Under the pieces are notes generated by a model. The model had not been told where the DNA came from. It was given only the letters and a program-made list of their open reading frames with translations, and did no database searches. The position numbers and the translations under genes were made by a program. This document shows positions 2,376-26,746 of a stretch of DNA of 27,577 nt, in pieces. The stretch covers positions 1 to 27,577 of IMG/VR virus record IMGVR_UViG_3300046683_000247; one strand, 5' to 3'. The stretch is from a virus. The stretch's first letter is position 1. Every line of letters begins with the position of its first letter.

Positions 2376-2527
2376 TGGACTACACGCCGCGGCAATTGCA
2401 GGCGTTCGTCTTTATCGCCGGGAAGCGGCGGCAGCGCGACCTCGGCGAACGGCTTCACGTCAACACCTTGGCAGCGCGCGGCGAGGAGAAAGCAATCCGC
2501 GAGTTCATGAAGGCACTCGATGCCTGA
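2252..2527 (+). CDS. Tail assembly chaperone frameshift extension (T-like part)
   Basis: This is the -1 frame segment that would be fused to the chaperone N-terminus, giving a product of about 201 aa. The later part has clear protein character (EQLIAAGHACREVMDY, then TPRQLQAFVFIAGKRRQRDL) and ends with a charged helix at MKALDA. No convincing independent start exists upstream. A GTG (2372) and an ATG (2375) at the stop of the short frame could instead give a coupled 50-aa protein. The segment overlaps the tape measure start at 2520, as in other siphovirus G-T genes. In known systems the T part recruits the tape measure to the tail-tube protein. Confidence 0.65.
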   Translation: MRPAGASRGRPRARPGWQGSGYECAAAAEQLIAAGHACREVMDYTPRQLQAFVFIAGKRRQRDLGERLHVNTLAARGEEKAIREFMKALDA

Positions 2528-4157
2528 TAATCTAACCATCAGTATCGGCGCCGATACCAGCAAGGTCCGCGGCGAGATCCGCCTGCTTCAGGCGCAGATC
2601 CAAGATCTCGGCCGCGGCCTACGCGCCGCCGTCAAGACCGGCGACACCGCCGGCGCGCAAGGCATCTCCCAGAACATCGGGAGGATGCAGTCCCAACTGG
2701 CTGGGCTCAACCGGACCTTGCGGGAGACCGAACCGGCGGCGCAGCAAGCATCCCGCGGCATTGCGCTGACGGCGCGCAGCTTCAAATCGCTGGAAGGCGC
2801 GGCGCTGGGTGTCGGCAAGAGCTTCGGCGGGATGCAGGCGGGGCTCGCCGGTCTTGCCGTCACCCTGGGCGCCCAGGGCATCGGCAAGCTGGTCGGCGGC
2901 GTCGTCGAAGACCTGACAAAACTTCAGCAGGTCGCATCGAATACCGGTTTCAAGCCGGCTGATATCAACGCTGTCGGCAACGCAATGCTGCGATTGGGCG
3001 TCAGCACCGACGCCACCCAGCAGGCGCTGGCACAATTCAGCAAGGTCGCGGTCGACGCCAAGATGAAGGCGGGGCAGCTCGGCAACAATTTCGGGGTGAT
3101 GATACAGCGCCCGGCCGACGTTGCCTCCAGCGGTATCGTCAGGCTTAGCGGGGCAACCGATAGCTTCGTCCGGGTGCTACGCGGCAACGCCTCCAACGCA
3201 ATCAAGGACTTCTCCGACCCCCTGGAACAGCTCGGAGTCAAGGCGAGGGTAGCAAACAAGTCGTTGCTGGAAGGCGCGGTGATAACCGCGCAGGCTTTGC
3301 AGTCGTTTAAGAAGAACAACCCGCTGGCCGCGGCGGGCTTCGGTCAGGAACTGTTCGGCGCCGATTGGGATAAGATTTCACAAGGGCTTGCCAGCGTCGC
3401 CAACAGTCCGGCATGGAAAAAGCTACAGGAACAAGCCGCCATTCTTACCGGGCCGGAAGCGATGCAGCGGATGGCCGACTACAATGCCGCCTGGGGCGAT
3501 CTACAGATTGCCATCAACAACACTATTCAGCCGCTCGTGATTCAGTTGCTTCCCGAGCTGACACAATTGTTGAACGATTTAAGGCCGGCGATACTGGCTC
3601 TGGCGCCTGACGTAAAAGCTACTTTCTCCGAAATAATCGCCTTTATGCAGACCACCAAACAAGAGGTGCAGGGACTCATTGATATCTACAATTTTTTAGC
3701 AAGCACGATCAGCTCAATAGTCTCCGCGGTCGGCGGGGCGGCCTCGGCGGTCGGCACGGCATTATCTAATCTGCCGGCGGCGGCGGGGATTCCAGGCGGC
3801 ATGGCGTCAGGCGGCATGGTGCGCGGCCCCGGCGGCCCGACCAGCGACAGCATCCTGGCACGTCTCAGCAATGGCGAGTTCGTCATGTCGGCCGGCGCGG
3901 TGCAGCGCTGGGGTGCGGGGTTGCTGGCGTCGATGAACGGCGGAGGCACCCTGATCCCGCGCAACGGGCGCTATGCCGAGGGCGGCCTGGTGGCGGCGGG
4001 CGGCGGTGCGCCGGTTCACCTCCACCTCGGCGGCCAGTCCTTCGCGCTCGCCGGCAACCAGAACGTCGTCGACGCGCTGGTGGTCGAGGCGCACCGGCAC
4101 AAGATCCGCTCGGCCGGCACCAAGCCGAGCTGGTACGGCGGCACGCCCGGCCGATGA
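2520..4157 (+). CDS. Tape measure protein
   Basis: A 545-aa protein starting at ATG 2520, overlapping the chaperone extension. It opens with LTISIGADTSKVRGEI, followed by long predicted helices rich in Ala, Gln and Leu that fit the coiled tape sitting inside the tail tube and setting its length. A hydrophobic stretch lies near residues 395-430. The C-terminus carries the motif common in phage tape measures, GGMVRGPGGPTSDSILARL followed by NGEFVMSAGAVQRWG. The protein is short for the family, which predicts a short non-contractile tail. Confidence 0.85.
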   Translation: MPDNLTISIGADTSKVRGEIRLLQAQIQDLGRGLRAAVKTGDTAGAQGISQNIGRMQSQLAGLNRTLRETEPAAQQASRGIALTARSFKSLEGAALGVGKSFGGMQAGLAGLAVTLGAQGIGKLVGGVVEDLTKLQQVASNTGFKPADINAVGNAMLRLGVSTDATQQALAQFSKVAVDAKMKAGQLGNNFGVMIQRPADVASSGIVRLSGATDSFVRVLRGNASNAIKDFSDPLEQLGVKARVANKSLLEGAVITAQALQSFKKNNPLAAAGFGQELFGADWDKISQGLASVANSPAWKKLQEQAAILTGPEAMQRMADYNAAWGDLQIAINNTIQPLVIQLLPELTQLLNDLRPAILALAPDVKATFSEIIAFMQTTKQEVQGLIDIYNFLASTISSIVSAVGGAASAVGTALSNLPAAAGIPGGMASGGMVRGPGGPTSDSILARLSNGEFVMSAGAVQRWGAGLLASMNGGGTLIPRNGRYAEGGLVAAGGGAPVHLHLGGQSFALAGNQNVVDALVVEAHRHKIRSAGTKPSWYGGTPGR

Positions 4158-7354: not shown

Positions 7355-7834
7355 ATGTTTGAATATGCCGTTCGCCCGTTCGAGTCCCGCGATGTCCTCG
7401 GCCGCACCATCCTGCCGTCGACGCCGGGCGACAGCGTCGAGCGCGCGACCTTGACCTGGGGCTCCTCCGCATCGACGACGCCTGGCACGCTACCGAAACC
7501 GACGAGCCTCGGCGTCAACATCAAGTGCTGCCAGGAGATCCGCACGCAAGACAATGCCGAGTCGTCGGCGATAAGCGTCCAGGTACAAGGACACCACCCG
7601 ATTTTGATACCGGTCAAACGATCGGATGTCGTGCTTGCCAAGAAGCAGGACGAAAACCACTGCGACGACTGGCTGATGCAAAATTCGTCGGTAGCATCCG
7701 GCGTCAGCCAGGCATTCAGCGACCTCGGGTTGTCGATCCATGCGTCGGATAACGCCTTCCGACCGGCCGGCTCCAACCCGGAGTGCCGCGAGACGACGAA
7801 ATACAAATACGACGGAGCGCAGAATGCCGTTTGA
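7355..7834 (+). CDS. Unknown tail-region protein, paralogue A
   Basis: A 159-aa protein starting at ATG 7355, three bases after the hub gene and preceded by a G-rich ribosome site. It opens MFEYAVRPFESRD, then LGRTILPSTPGDSVERATLTWG, and has a CC pair mid-protein. It is a clear paralogue of the next gene along its whole length. The C-terminal half contains a 27-residue stretch identical to the paralogue (about residues 109-135). No known domain is recognised. The position between tail tip and fibre suggests a structural or assembly role. Confidence 0.6.
   Translation: MFEYAVRPFESRDVLGRTILPSTPGDSVERATLTWGSSASTTPGTLPKPTSLGVNIKCCQEIRTQDNAESSAISVQVQGHHPILIPVKRSDVVLAKKQDENHCDDWLMQNSSVASGVSQAFSDLGLSIHASDNAFRPAGSNPECRETTKYKYDGAQNAV
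7718..7759 (+). repeat. 42-bp exact direct repeat, copy 1
   Basis: These 42 bases, inside paralogue A, are identical to 8190-8231 in paralogue B and in the same reading frame (14 codons). Bases on either side differ, and the preceding 13 codons encode the same amino acids with synonymous changes in 11 of them. Confidence 0.95.
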
Positions 7835-8321
7835 ATATTTTGTCAGACCGTTTCAAGGCGCGGACACCTTCGGCCGTATTATCCTGCCGTCGACACCGGG
7901 CAACAGCACCGAGAAAGCGACCTTGACCTGGGGCAACTCGACCTCATTGCCGCCAAACGCACTACCCTCGCCGACGACCCTGGGCGTCAACATCCGGTGC
8001 TGCAACGAAGAGCTGACCGAAAACACCCGCACCGGAAACACCATCCGCATCCACGCAATCAACGAGCCGGAAAGCTACATCGATGTACACCGGGCCACCG
8101 AAGTGGTTCTGCGAAAGAAAGAAGAAAACCACTGCAACGACTGGCTGAAGCAAAACTCATCTGTGGCGTCAGGGGTGAGCCAAGCCTTTAGCGACCTCGG
8201 GTTGTCGATCCATGCGTCGGATAACGCCTTCAAGCCGAGCGGGTCCACTCCCGAATGCCAGCAGACAATGAAGCTGAAGCCGAACACGGAGCCGGCGCAA
8301 GGCGAGACGACGCCGGCATGA
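7824..8321 (+). CDS. Unknown tail-region protein, paralogue B
   Basis: A 165-aa protein from ATG 7824, which overlaps the end of paralogue A (TGA 7832-7834). The frame is open further upstream, but the alignment with paralogue A (MPFEYFVRPFQ against MFEYAVRPFE) fixes this start. The proteins share the N-terminal RTILPSTPG/RIILPSTPG element, the LGVNI-x-CC element, an EENHC-x-DWL element and the C-terminal block. It has a charged, Pro- and Thr-rich tail. A tandem duplication with later divergence is the simplest explanation. Function is unknown. Confidence 0.65.
   Translation: MPFEYFVRPFQGADTFGRIILPSTPGNSTEKATLTWGNSTSLPPNALPSPTTLGVNIRCCNEELTENTRTGNTIRIHAINEPESYIDVHRATEVVLRKKEENHCNDWLKQNSSVASGVSQAFSDLGLSIHASDNAFKPSGSTPECQQTMKLKPNTEPAQGETTPA
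8190..8231 (+). repeat. 42-bp exact direct repeat, copy 2
   Basis: Second copy of the repeat at 7718-7759, 472 bases downstream and in the same codon phase. The genes around it have diverged at most synonymous sites, so the perfect identity here is out of keeping with its surroundings. Confidence 0.95.
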
Positions 8322-23892: not shown

Positions 23893-23912
23893 CCTGCCCC
23901 GAGGTTTGAGCC

Positions 23913-24356
23913 ATGAAACCGAGTGTAGATGAGCGAGTGCGGTTCGAGGCTCTGTTTGAACCAGAGCCGGACACTGGTTGCTGGCTGTGGATCGGTACAC
24001 AGAACTATCGGGTTGGATATGGAAAGTTCAATGTTCAGATAGCGCCGCGTATTTGGAAGACAGATTACGCTCATCGCGTGTCATGGCGGCTGTATCGCGG
24101 AGAAATCTCCGCTGACTTGGTTGTGGATCACCTGTGCAGAAATCCCCTGTGCGTCAATCCAGATCATCTTGAGCCGGTGACGCGGCAGAAGAATGCAATT
24201 CGCGGTGATATGTACAACGGCGAGACATGCCGACAGGGACACCCTTACTCAGGCAAGAACCTTTACATTAGGCCAGACAACGGCAAACGAGCTTGCAAGC
24301 AGTGTCAAACACAGGCCCAGCGTTTGCGCAGAGCACGTAAGAGGTCGGGCGCATGA
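23913..24356 (+). CDS. HNH endonuclease with C-terminal zinc module
   Basis: A 147-aa protein from ATG 23913, preceded by GAGG. The HNH core spans residues 54-90: AHRVSW (His54), VVDHLCRNPLCVNPDHLEPV with Asp72-His73, Asn82 and His85. A second module follows: C106-x3-H110 and C128-x2-C131 (CRQGHPYSGKNLY, then RACKQCQTQAQRLRR). The gene is richer in A and T than its neighbours, a common trait of mobile HNH genes. It may act as a free-standing homing-type nuclease. Confidence 0.8.
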   Translation: MKPSVDERVRFEALFEPEPDTGCWLWIGTQNYRVGYGKFNVQIAPRIWKTDYAHRVSWRLYRGEISADLVVDHLCRNPLCVNPDHLEPVTRQKNAIRGDMYNGETCRQGHPYSGKNLYIRPDNGKRACKQCQTQAQRLRRARKRSGA

Positions 24357-24631
24357 TTTGTGAGTTGTGCCACGGCACCGGCTATGCCATCCGCCATCCC
24401 TTGGTCGCCGGCACCAATCTCGGCGACACTCCCGCTGGCACATACCCGTCACCACCGCACCCCTGCCCCGAATGCAACGGCACCGGCATCGCCTCCTGCT
24501 GCGACACCGCAGGCAGCGCAAAGGGTGACGAGCCGGTGACACTTCACCCGCTGCTGTTCGGCGAGCCGCGGCCGGCATCGGTGGTCAACCGCGACCGACC
24601 CTGGCCGACCTACGCCCCGGTCAATCCGTGA
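24353..24631 (+). CDS. DnaJ-type zinc-finger protein
   Basis: A 92-aa protein from ATG 24353 (ATGA overlap). It carries two CxxCxGxG elements (residues 3-10 CELCHGTG and 38-45 CPECNGTG) and a CC pair, typical of a DnaJ-like zinc ribbon. The rest is Pro-rich. It may bind zinc and a partner protein. No J domain is present, so it is not a full co-chaperone. Confidence 0.6.
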   Translation: MICELCHGTGYAIRHPLVAGTNLGDTPAGTYPSPPHPCPECNGTGIASCCDTAGSAKGDEPVTLHPLLFGEPRPASVVNRDRPWPTYAPVNP

Positions 24632-25110
24632 TTGAACCGTCACCGCAGCGCCGCCAGCACGACCGCATCAGCCGCGACGCCGCGCAGCTCGCCGACAGCG
24701 CCGGGCTCATCGGCGTGCCGTGGCGCGCCGAGGGGTTGCTCGCCCGCCTCGAGCGCCACGGCGACATCGGCCGCAGGGAGCGCGCAGCCGGGGAGCTTTT
24801 CGCCGAATTGTTCCACCTCGCCCACCTCGACCCCCTCAAGGCCGCGGACATGGGGCAGCGCAGCGACCGAGCACCTACGACGGCATATGGCGGCGATCGC
24901 ACGCGGCGGCGCATCAACGACGCCCTCGACGCACTCGGCGGCATTAGCTCGCCTGGCGGCTCGTGTGCCTGGTTCGTCGTCGGCTGCGAATTGCCGATGG
25001 CCGAATGGGCGAGGCGACAGGAGTGGAGCGGAAAACCGATACGGCCGGAAGTGGCAAAGGGCGTCTTGCTCGCCACCCTCGGCTCGCTGGCCCGGCACTT
25101 CGGAGCGTGA
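24628..25110 (+). CDS. DUF6456-like DNA-binding/regulatory protein
   Basis: A 160-aa protein starting at GTG 24628, overlapping the previous stop. The C-terminal half (RRINDALDALGGISSPGGSC, then WFVVGCELPMAEWARRQEW, PIRPEVAKGVLLATLGSLARH) matches the pattern of DUF6456-type proteins in alphaproteobacteria. The N-terminal half is charged and helical. Its family is often linked to regulation, but the target is unknown. Confidence 0.5.
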   Translation: MIEPSPQRRQHDRISRDAAQLADSAGLIGVPWRAEGLLARLERHGDIGRRERAAGELFAELFHLAHLDPLKAADMGQRSDRAPTTAYGGDRTRRRINDALDALGGISSPGGSCAWFVVGCELPMAEWARRQEWSGKPIRPEVAKGVLLATLGSLARHFGA

Positions 25111-25111
25111 C

Positions 25112-26182
25112 GTGGAAACAATCTCACGAGCGGACGCAAAAGCGGCAGGCGAGATTTATTATTTTACCGGGGTTCCATGTTCATATGGACACATCTCGGA
25201 CAGGTCGGTGCGTAATTACACTTGCGTCGAATGCGAATACGCAAGAAAACGCGGTGAAGTACTCCAATGCGATTTGCCACAATGTTGCATATGCGGCTCG
25301 CAAGTAAGAGCGCCAGGCCATGCAACGTGTTCTGGCGAATGCCAATCTATTTGGGATGCGGCAAAGCAGCGAACAAAATACGCATTACGGCCAAAGCTAC
25401 GCATTAAGATATGCCCTGGCTGTGGCACCCACCACAAAACGAAATATAAACAATTCTGCTCGGCCGAATGCCACGCACAGCATCTGAGCAAACCGCAACG
25501 CGAGCCGGTGCCGTGTTTAGTTTGCGGCCTGATAAACGCCGAGCTGAACCAGAAGCTATGCTCCGACAAATGTAGGAAACAGCGCAACAAACAACTGCGC
25601 ACCGAAGGACAGCGCCGGAAAGTCGAACGCGGGTATGTCGCGGAATATGGGCGGCACATACGCGCCAAGGTCGCGGCGGCTGTCGCTGTCGCTAGGCAAC
25701 TCGGCGTCGTGCCAAAGCCCGAGCGCAACACAACGCCGAAATCTACAACAACGGATGACCTAACCCCGGATCAAGAAGGTTGGCTCTTCAACTTCCTACA
25801 AATGCGCAGGCGAATGAACCATGCCGGAATATGTTACGCCTGCGGTTCTCGTTTGACGTATCGTAGACGGGGATCGGGACACCAAAGAACCAAATTTTGT
25901 TCGACGAAATGCAATTATATCTTCAACGTCTACAAGGCAAGATACGACGCCGGGTTGAAGGAGTGCAGGTGCGGCGCCGCCTTCTTCGCAACTAGGAAGC
26001 ACACACGTTACTGCTCGACGGCATGCAGCAAAGCCGCCGAGCAACAACAGGGACGGGATTACCGCAAAGCACACCCCGAGCGGAAACAACTGAAACGGAG
26101 GCGCGAACGAGAACAATACGCCGTAATGATCGCATTCAGACGAATGGGATTGCTCCCAACGACAGGAGAAATAAAAACATGA
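25112..26182 (+). CDS. Orphan protein with six zinc knuckles
   Basis: A 356-aa protein read from GTG 25112, just after the previous stop. The upstream open extension shadows that gene. It contains six Cys-rich elements, mostly of the form C-x2-C-x(11-18)-C-x3-C: a C-x2-H/C-x2-C module (23-41), then 58-77, 101-120, 135-154, 241-267 and 285-305. Several end in FCS-x-x-C or YCS-x-x-C, as in treble-clef fingers. Basic helices and a hydrophobic motif (VAVARQLGVVP and AVMIAFRRMGLLP) follow two finger groups, suggesting internal duplication. No catalytic motif is seen. Base use is AT-richer than nearby genes. Confidence 0.65.
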   Translation: METISRADAKAAGEIYYFTGVPCSYGHISDRSVRNYTCVECEYARKRGEVLQCDLPQCCICGSQVRAPGHATCSGECQSIWDAAKQRTKYALRPKLRIKICPGCGTHHKTKYKQFCSAECHAQHLSKPQREPVPCLVCGLINAELNQKLCSDKCRKQRNKQLRTEGQRRKVERGYVAEYGRHIRAKVAAAVAVARQLGVVPKPERNTTPKSTTTDDLTPDQEGWLFNFLQMRRRMNHAGICYACGSRLTYRRRGSGHQRTKFCSTKCNYIFNVYKARYDAGLKECRCGAAFFATRKHTRYCSTACSKAAEQQQGRDYRKAHPERKQLKRRREREQYAVMIAFRRMGLLPTTGEIKT

Positions 26183-26691
26183 CCTATATCGATACCGGGA
26201 CCATCGGCGCCAAGGTGCAGTCATGGCACGCAGCCAACCCACGCGACTTGTTGAAGCGGGTGATCGACGATCACCCAGGCGCAGACCGGGCCGCCCTCTT
26301 CCATTTGTTTCTGGAGAAACTGAAGGAAGAGGACGACAGCGATTATGTGGATACGATCATCGAGTACTGGTTTGTAAACAACTACCACAGCCTAATCGGC
26401 TTTACGGCAAAACGCCAGCAAGCCGCCAAGGCCCAGCGGGAAGAATGGATCGCCGGGACCGAGGCCAAGCTCAGCCAGAAGATCGCCGAGGCAGCAACGG
26501 TGGTGCTTTCGGAAATGATCATGCCGAACGGCAAGCAGCTCGCCGCTTGCACCGGGCAAGAATGCGTGGACTTGCAGCGCAGAATGGGAAGCTGGCTCGG
26601 CAAGGTCGTGCGGCGCGTCAAGCCTGATCAGACCGTTGGCGACGCGCTGACCGAGGAGGATCTACAAACCCTCTACGCAAAACGCGCTTGA
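26179..26691 (+). CDS. Unknown early protein (170 aa)
   Basis: ATG 26179 has a clear AGGAG ribosome site and overlaps the zinc-knuckle gene's stop. The open frame extends far upstream but is a shadow there. It is mostly helical, with SWHAANPRDLLKRVIDDHPG, a long charged helix (AKRQQAAKAQREEWIAG) and a C-terminal region with VGDALTEEDLQTLYAKRA. It is the last gene of the early operon before the hairpin at 26723. No family is recognised. Confidence 0.6.
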   Translation: MTYIDTGTIGAKVQSWHAANPRDLLKRVIDDHPGADRAALFHLFLEKLKEEDDSDYVDTIIEYWFVNNYHSLIGFTAKRQQAAKAQREEWIAGTEAKLSQKIAEAATVVLSEMIMPNGKQLAACTGQECVDLQRRMGSWLGKVVRRVKPDQTVGDALTEEDLQTLYAKRA

Positions 26692-26722
26692 CAACGCGAA
26701 GTTAAGCTGAATGCTGCGGTTA

Positions 26723-26746
26723 GGTGTGAGAGTTGTCTCTCACACC
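26723..26746 (+). terminator. Strong hairpin after the early operon
   Basis: Ten-base perfect arms GGTGTGAGAG and CTCTCACACC with a four-base loop TTGT, 32 bases after the stop of the last early gene. No T-run follows, so it is not a standard intrinsic terminator and could be an attenuator, an mRNA stabiliser or a regulator-binding site. Confidence 0.55.

Follow-up and report, generated by a model that had tools for sequence, protein, structure and literature searches.

A zinc-knuckle gene and its overlapping neighbour form a recurrent, mobile two-gene unit in unrelated phages

The window analysed here, the whole of a 27,577-base IMG/VR virus record, carries at positions 25112 to 26182 a gene for a strongly basic protein (pI 9.8) in which 25 of the 356 residues are cysteines. 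The gene order is tight: a DUF6456-like gene (24628-25110) is followed 1 base later by the zinc-knuckle gene, which is in turn overlapped by a gene encoding a protein of 170 residues (26179-26691), hereafter the partner. GC3 is 0.55 in the knuckle gene, compared with 0.84 in the DUF6456 gene and 0.75 in the partner gene. The features of the locus are listed below (L numbers denote loci used for comparison).

25112..26182, plus strand: gene of the zinc-knuckle protein (356 aa), starting with GTG and ending in a TGA that overlaps the ATG of the next gene
25112..25261, plus strand: N-terminal module, residues 1-50, candidate zinc ligands C23, H27, C38 and C41
25283..25342, plus strand: knuckle 1, CCICGSQVRAPGHATCSGEC, residues 58-77
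25412..25471, plus strand: knuckle 2, CPGCGTHHKTKYKQFCSAEC, residues 101-120
25514..25573, plus strand: knuckle 3, CLVCGLINAELNQKLCSDKC, residues 135-154, with a weak DUF2116 treble-clef match
25673..25711, plus strand: internal hydrophobic helix motif, AAAVAVARQLGVV, residues 188-200, the best leave-one-out profile site outside the C-terminus
25832..25912, plus strand: knuckle 4, CYACG...KFCSTKC, residues 241-267
25964..26026, plus strand: knuckle 5, CRCG...RYCSTAC, residues 285-305, CxC in the window and CxxC in L162
26117..26155, plus strand: C-terminal helix motif, YAVMIAFRRMGLL, residues 336-348, leave-one-out score 14.9, reached by 0 of 707 background ORFs
26179..26691, plus strand: partner gene (P0012), 170 aa, pI 5.8, ATGA overlap of 4 bases with the knuckle gene
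25111..26691, no strand assigned: two-gene insertion relative to L090, L092, L093 and L094, which are without the pair

A first-pass annotation, made from the sequence alone, had described an orphan protein built from six zinc knuckles. Six Cys-rich elements are indeed there, yet only five are CxxC...CSxxC knuckles; the first, a CxxxH...CxxC element (residues 23-41), belongs to a module associated with HNH endonucleases. The phrog_1081 profile matches residues 1-47 (E=1.9e-10), the N-termini of phage HNH proteins are 40-50% identical to this module, and it is modelled at pLDDT 88-98. Scanning IMG/VR with five examples of the module as queries gave 80 loci and 63 distinct proteins, 55 of which have a DH dyad downstream of the module by a simple pattern test, indicating that the module usually belongs to nucleases; a Pfam HNH domain was confirmed in L013, L019 and L028 but not in L009. 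Eight module proteins are without the dyad, three of them ending at contig edges. The HNH is present in another frame in L085, a different domain that appears GIY-YIG-like by eye is found in L077, and no nuclease domain is visible in L022 and L081. P0005 of Vibrio phage 13VV501A provides a further case of the module without a visible nuclease. In L079, another of the eight (gene at 2501-2827 and beyond), the module and the HNH domain are separated by an in-frame stop.

The knuckles, too, lead to phage endonucleases, specifically to their noncatalytic part. Residues 36-171 match positions 92-248 of the 361 in phrog_1271 (E=3.4e-11); the HNH part of that family, at approximately 248-321, starts where the match stops, and it is to positions 248-319 that the window's own HNH protein, P0009, aligns. 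Across 398 bacterial genomes, the listed matches to phrog_1271 fall mostly at approximately 248-325 and are largely generic HNH domains. Neither a DH nor an EH dyad occurs anywhere in the 356 residues of the knuckle protein, and no Pfam HNH or nuclease profile matches it at E 10. Nor did Pfam or NCBIfam give a profile match of the PD-(D/E)XK/VSR type, much of the 200-300 region being poorly modelled. A phrog_1271 match that ends before the HNH part, together with the missing dyad and the missing Pfam nuclease match, suggests that the protein retains the accessory part of an enzyme of this kind and that the catalytic part is absent. The earlier observation that no nuclease is recognisable therefore stands, and the family search that the annotation had proposed met a known endonuclease family in its noncatalytic part but not in its HNH part. 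Matches to smaller knuckle families fall below their cut-offs (DUF2116, 18.1 bits against 26.8; YacG, 15 bits against 79), and Foldseek lists Escherichia coli YacG without significance. Three knuckles of similar kind, again with no visible nuclease, occur in a protein encoded at L151 (1318-1908), a locus in a bacterial genome.

Other searches with the knuckle protein returned little. With the single protein sequence as query, neither IMG/VR nor GTDB genomes yielded a relative, a search of solved structures gave no match, and plasmid and phage searches gave only N-module or loose knuckle matches. Structure prediction, which the annotation had put forward as a check, was informative in part. Folding from the single sequence was useless (mean pLDDT 41). 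With relatives of the N-module included the mean rose to 68, good modelling being limited to the N-module and the long helices and the knuckles remaining mostly at or below 70. The modelled helices 165-196 and 322-344 extend into the hydrophobic motifs, the internal motif straddling the end of the first helix. Foldseek found no significant match for the model in the PDB, matches in a viral structure library were mainly to N-module-sized and HNH-annotated phage proteins, and VIA-align gave nothing above Z 4.4.

The internal duplication and the two hydrophobic motif copies that had been proposed from the sequence were both borne out. Local alignment of one half of the knuckle protein against the other scores 59, as against a shuffle mean of 32.5, and this score was reached by 1 of 1000 full shuffles and by 7 of 1000 shuffles with cysteines fixed. 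Tested pairwise, the hydrophobic motif alone fell short of significance (578 of 2000 shuffles), and this test was superseded by a profile test with the family. Eight proteins of the set share a tail motif, xAAhxAh[KR][ED][LM][GN][LI], and a leave-one-out profile, from which the tested protein was excluded and in which the window and L162 were excluded from each other's profile, finds it at the expected place in all eight; 0-2 of 707 background ORFs reached such a score. The training blocks were aligned by eye, which somewhat favours the result and is offset in part by the hold-out. On this result we accept both copies, at residue 188 and at residues 336-348. The knuckle proteins of L162 and L165 also carry an internal copy, likewise after a knuckle group, and those of RHph_TM16 and L157 show the C-terminal motif weakly or not at all. 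Thus, the C-terminal helix motif is common to most partner-linked knuckle proteins.

The partner has no family match in Pfam, PHROGs, or NCBIfam. A weak tblastn match connects it to gp87 of Rhizobium phage RHph_TM16, where the preceding gene, gp86, encodes a knuckle protein and overlaps gp87 by 8 bases. When the partner alignment was widened stepwise to 11 members, window included, a knuckle gene was found to adjoin the partner in nine of the 11 loci, again counting the window, compared with 7 of approximately 356 ORFs from background loci that fit the same knuckle pattern when screened with it. The neighbour protein carries five knuckles in the window, L162, and L157, four in L165, three canonical ones in L161, two in L163, and one each in L156, L166, and RHph_TM16. 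Of the remaining two loci, L159 has a basic neighbour on the other side of the partner with the same tail and no canonical knuckle, and L164 is a truncated partner copy without a knuckle neighbour. The knuckle proteins range from approximately 107 to 371 residues, differ in their N-termini between phages, and have pI values of 9.5-10.9; the partners lie mostly at 5.5-6.9. Simple charge pairing nevertheless fails, since the partners of L159 (pI 9.9) and L163 (pI 8.8) are not acidic. Against the PDB, the partner profile gave weak hits to designed helical repeats, which we discarded since no stretch passed alone. The partner family was not found in the Pseudomonadota genome samples searched, a search run without a positive control. 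Collectively, these comparisons establish the knuckle gene and its partner as a recurrent two-gene unit in unrelated phages.

One relative, L162, repeats the whole locus, from DUF6456 through knuckle protein, partner, and HNH gene to the small and large terminase genes. Its knuckle gene (2410-3498) encodes a full-length protein, 56% identical to that of the window, which retains every knuckle position, and the gene still overlaps that of the partner. For the knuckle gene dN is 0.38 and dS 3.0, a saturated value that makes the ratio indicative only; the partners are 63% identical, with dN 0.25 and dS 1.2. The knuckle protein is thus under purifying selection between the window and L162. Judged by sequence, therefore, the protein has known relatives, in its N-module, in the phrog_1271 knuckles, and in the syntenic L162 copy, and with its membership of a recurrent two-gene unit the description of it as an orphan falls.

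Comparison of the surroundings identifies the pair as a mobile accessory module. IMG/VR contains 23 relatives of the DUF6456 gene, that of L090 being 83% identical, and in L090, L092, L093, and L094 a short gap separates it from an HNH gene, with the terminase genes next where the contig continues. The absence of the pair from these four loci identifies window positions 25111 to approximately 26691 as an insertion, and the different 120-residue ORF that occupies the same slot in L091 (3489-3851) marks the site after DUF6456 as a place of gene exchange. At the right edge lies a GCTTGACA element that, in the window, L092, and L162, contains the stop codon of the last gene; it also occurs in L090, L091, and L093. 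Elsewhere in the window, a gene for an HNH_3 endonuclease (23913-24356) is cleanly inserted (23903-24367), the close relative L090 being continuous across the site (2661 to 2663), and the ORFs at 7355-7834 and 7740-8321 encode similar proteins (MFEYAVRPFESRDVLGRTILPSTPG and MPFEYFVRPFQGADTFGRIILPSTPG) in an apparent tandem duplication.

Downstream of the pair, at 26688-26740, a TTGACA element precedes the HNH-terminase genes; it is conserved in L090-L093 and L162 and in the window is followed by a GTGTGAGAG...CTCTCACAC inverted repeat. This junction is possibly a late control site, although a sigma-70 scan found no promoter there. Upstream, the 24628-25110 gene matches DUF6456 just under the cut-off, and since GafA, the gene-transfer-agent activator, matches proteins annotated DUF6456 (PMC9638019), this gene may, by analogy, encode a phage late activator.

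The reading that we hold with moderate confidence is that the knuckle protein is a modular nucleic-acid-binding adaptor, assembled from parts of HNH endonucleases without the nuclease, which acts with the 170-residue partner as a mobile unit. Its building blocks would be the CxxxH-CxxC N-module, treble-clef knuckles resembling YacG and DUF2116, and long basic helices. The knuckles and basic helices would grip DNA (or RNA), while the C-terminal helix motif and its internal copy would dock the partner. Variation between phages in knuckle number, from one to five, and in the N-terminus would be expected if a changeable targeting half stood beside a constant effector half. From its sequence, the protein probably binds DNA or RNA on behalf of the product of the neighbouring gene. 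Zinc binding, nucleic-acid binding, and docking are putative activities, as is any purpose they may serve, for example in taking over the host, countering defence, or controlling genes. Gene neighbourhood shows an association of the two genes, which is distinct from physical contact between their products.

Several other explanations were weighed against this adaptor. That the N-module and knuckles are common to HNH proteins, that the gene is an insertion with GC3 below its neighbours, and that an intact HNH_3 gene has inserted nearby would all suit a decayed free-standing HNH homing endonuclease, which has lost its nuclease and persists transiently as a DNA-binding remnant or autorepressor. 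We rank this dying-enzyme reading down, to unlikely, on account of the L162 copy, which at such divergence keeps its length, knuckle positions, and overlap, with dN well below dS; moreover, at seven further partner loci the knuckle protein is of another design and likewise shows no visible HNH. Slightly less likely still is a regulator (activator, repressor, or antiterminator) of the late operon that starts just downstream. Such a role would fit the position of the pair in the window and L162, between a DUF6456 gene, with its link to GafA, and the TTGACA element that leads into the HNH and terminase genes. However, close relatives without the pair retain both the TTGACA element and the late genes, the sigma-70 scan was negative, and elsewhere the neighbourhood of the pair includes an integrase (L156), an exonuclease together with a polymerase-like gene (L159), or a PD-(D/E)XK gene (L163), varied surroundings which argue that it is not tied to late-gene control. 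The least probable of these alternatives is a toxin–antitoxin-like or anti-defence pair, in which one protein is harmful or active against host machinery and the other controls it; overlapping, mobile genes in accessory positions that encode mostly basic and acidic products would be in keeping with it, but PADLOC gave no match and the wide size range of the knuckle proteins is unlike that of the usual toxin–antitoxin pairs.

The adaptor reading can be extended, tentatively, to a two-component phage system of an undescribed class, in which a constant, effector-like protein of approximately 170 residues is guided by a swappable knuckle-array adaptor that has one docking helix per knuckle group. 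Under the same two-component proposal, and just as speculatively, the arrays might have been lengthened, shortened, and swapped between phages, with their parts drawn from mobile endonucleases. If the reading of an adaptor with a constant partner is correct, phages have put the targeting parts of homing endonucleases to a noncutting use, and the adaptors would offer a natural series of targeting arrays of graded length for study. A partner family with no entry in the libraries searched is nonetheless found beside a zinc-knuckle protein in most of its phage loci, and the pairing, even if no function is assigned, lets annotators name two groups of "hypothetical" genes jointly.

Neither the pair nor the tail motif nor the partner family turned up in the libraries and papers searched, and the literature yielded no description of the N-module or of the knuckle-partner pair; the constituent parts are known. 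In the phage "HNH endonuclease" family phrog_1271 the knuckle array precedes a nuclease, and what it has in common with the window protein is the knuckle region only. A similar array, approximately 30% identical over window residues 55-163, is found in YP_009597690 of the Bixzunavirus Lukilu, which is annotated as an HNH endonuclease; this protein is without the N-module, and its terminal domain, PD-(D/E)XK/VSR-like by eye, has no match in the window protein. YacG and DUF2116 share the CxxC...CSxxC pattern, although YacG is a small protein with a single knuckle. Finally, the "endonuclease VII" of Pseudomonas phage PS-1 and gp02 of Xanthomonas phage FoX2 share with the window protein the 47-residue YFTGKPC N-module of phrog_1081. 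Whereas phage HNH proteins with this module end in an HNH domain, the window protein has instead five knuckles and two helix motifs.
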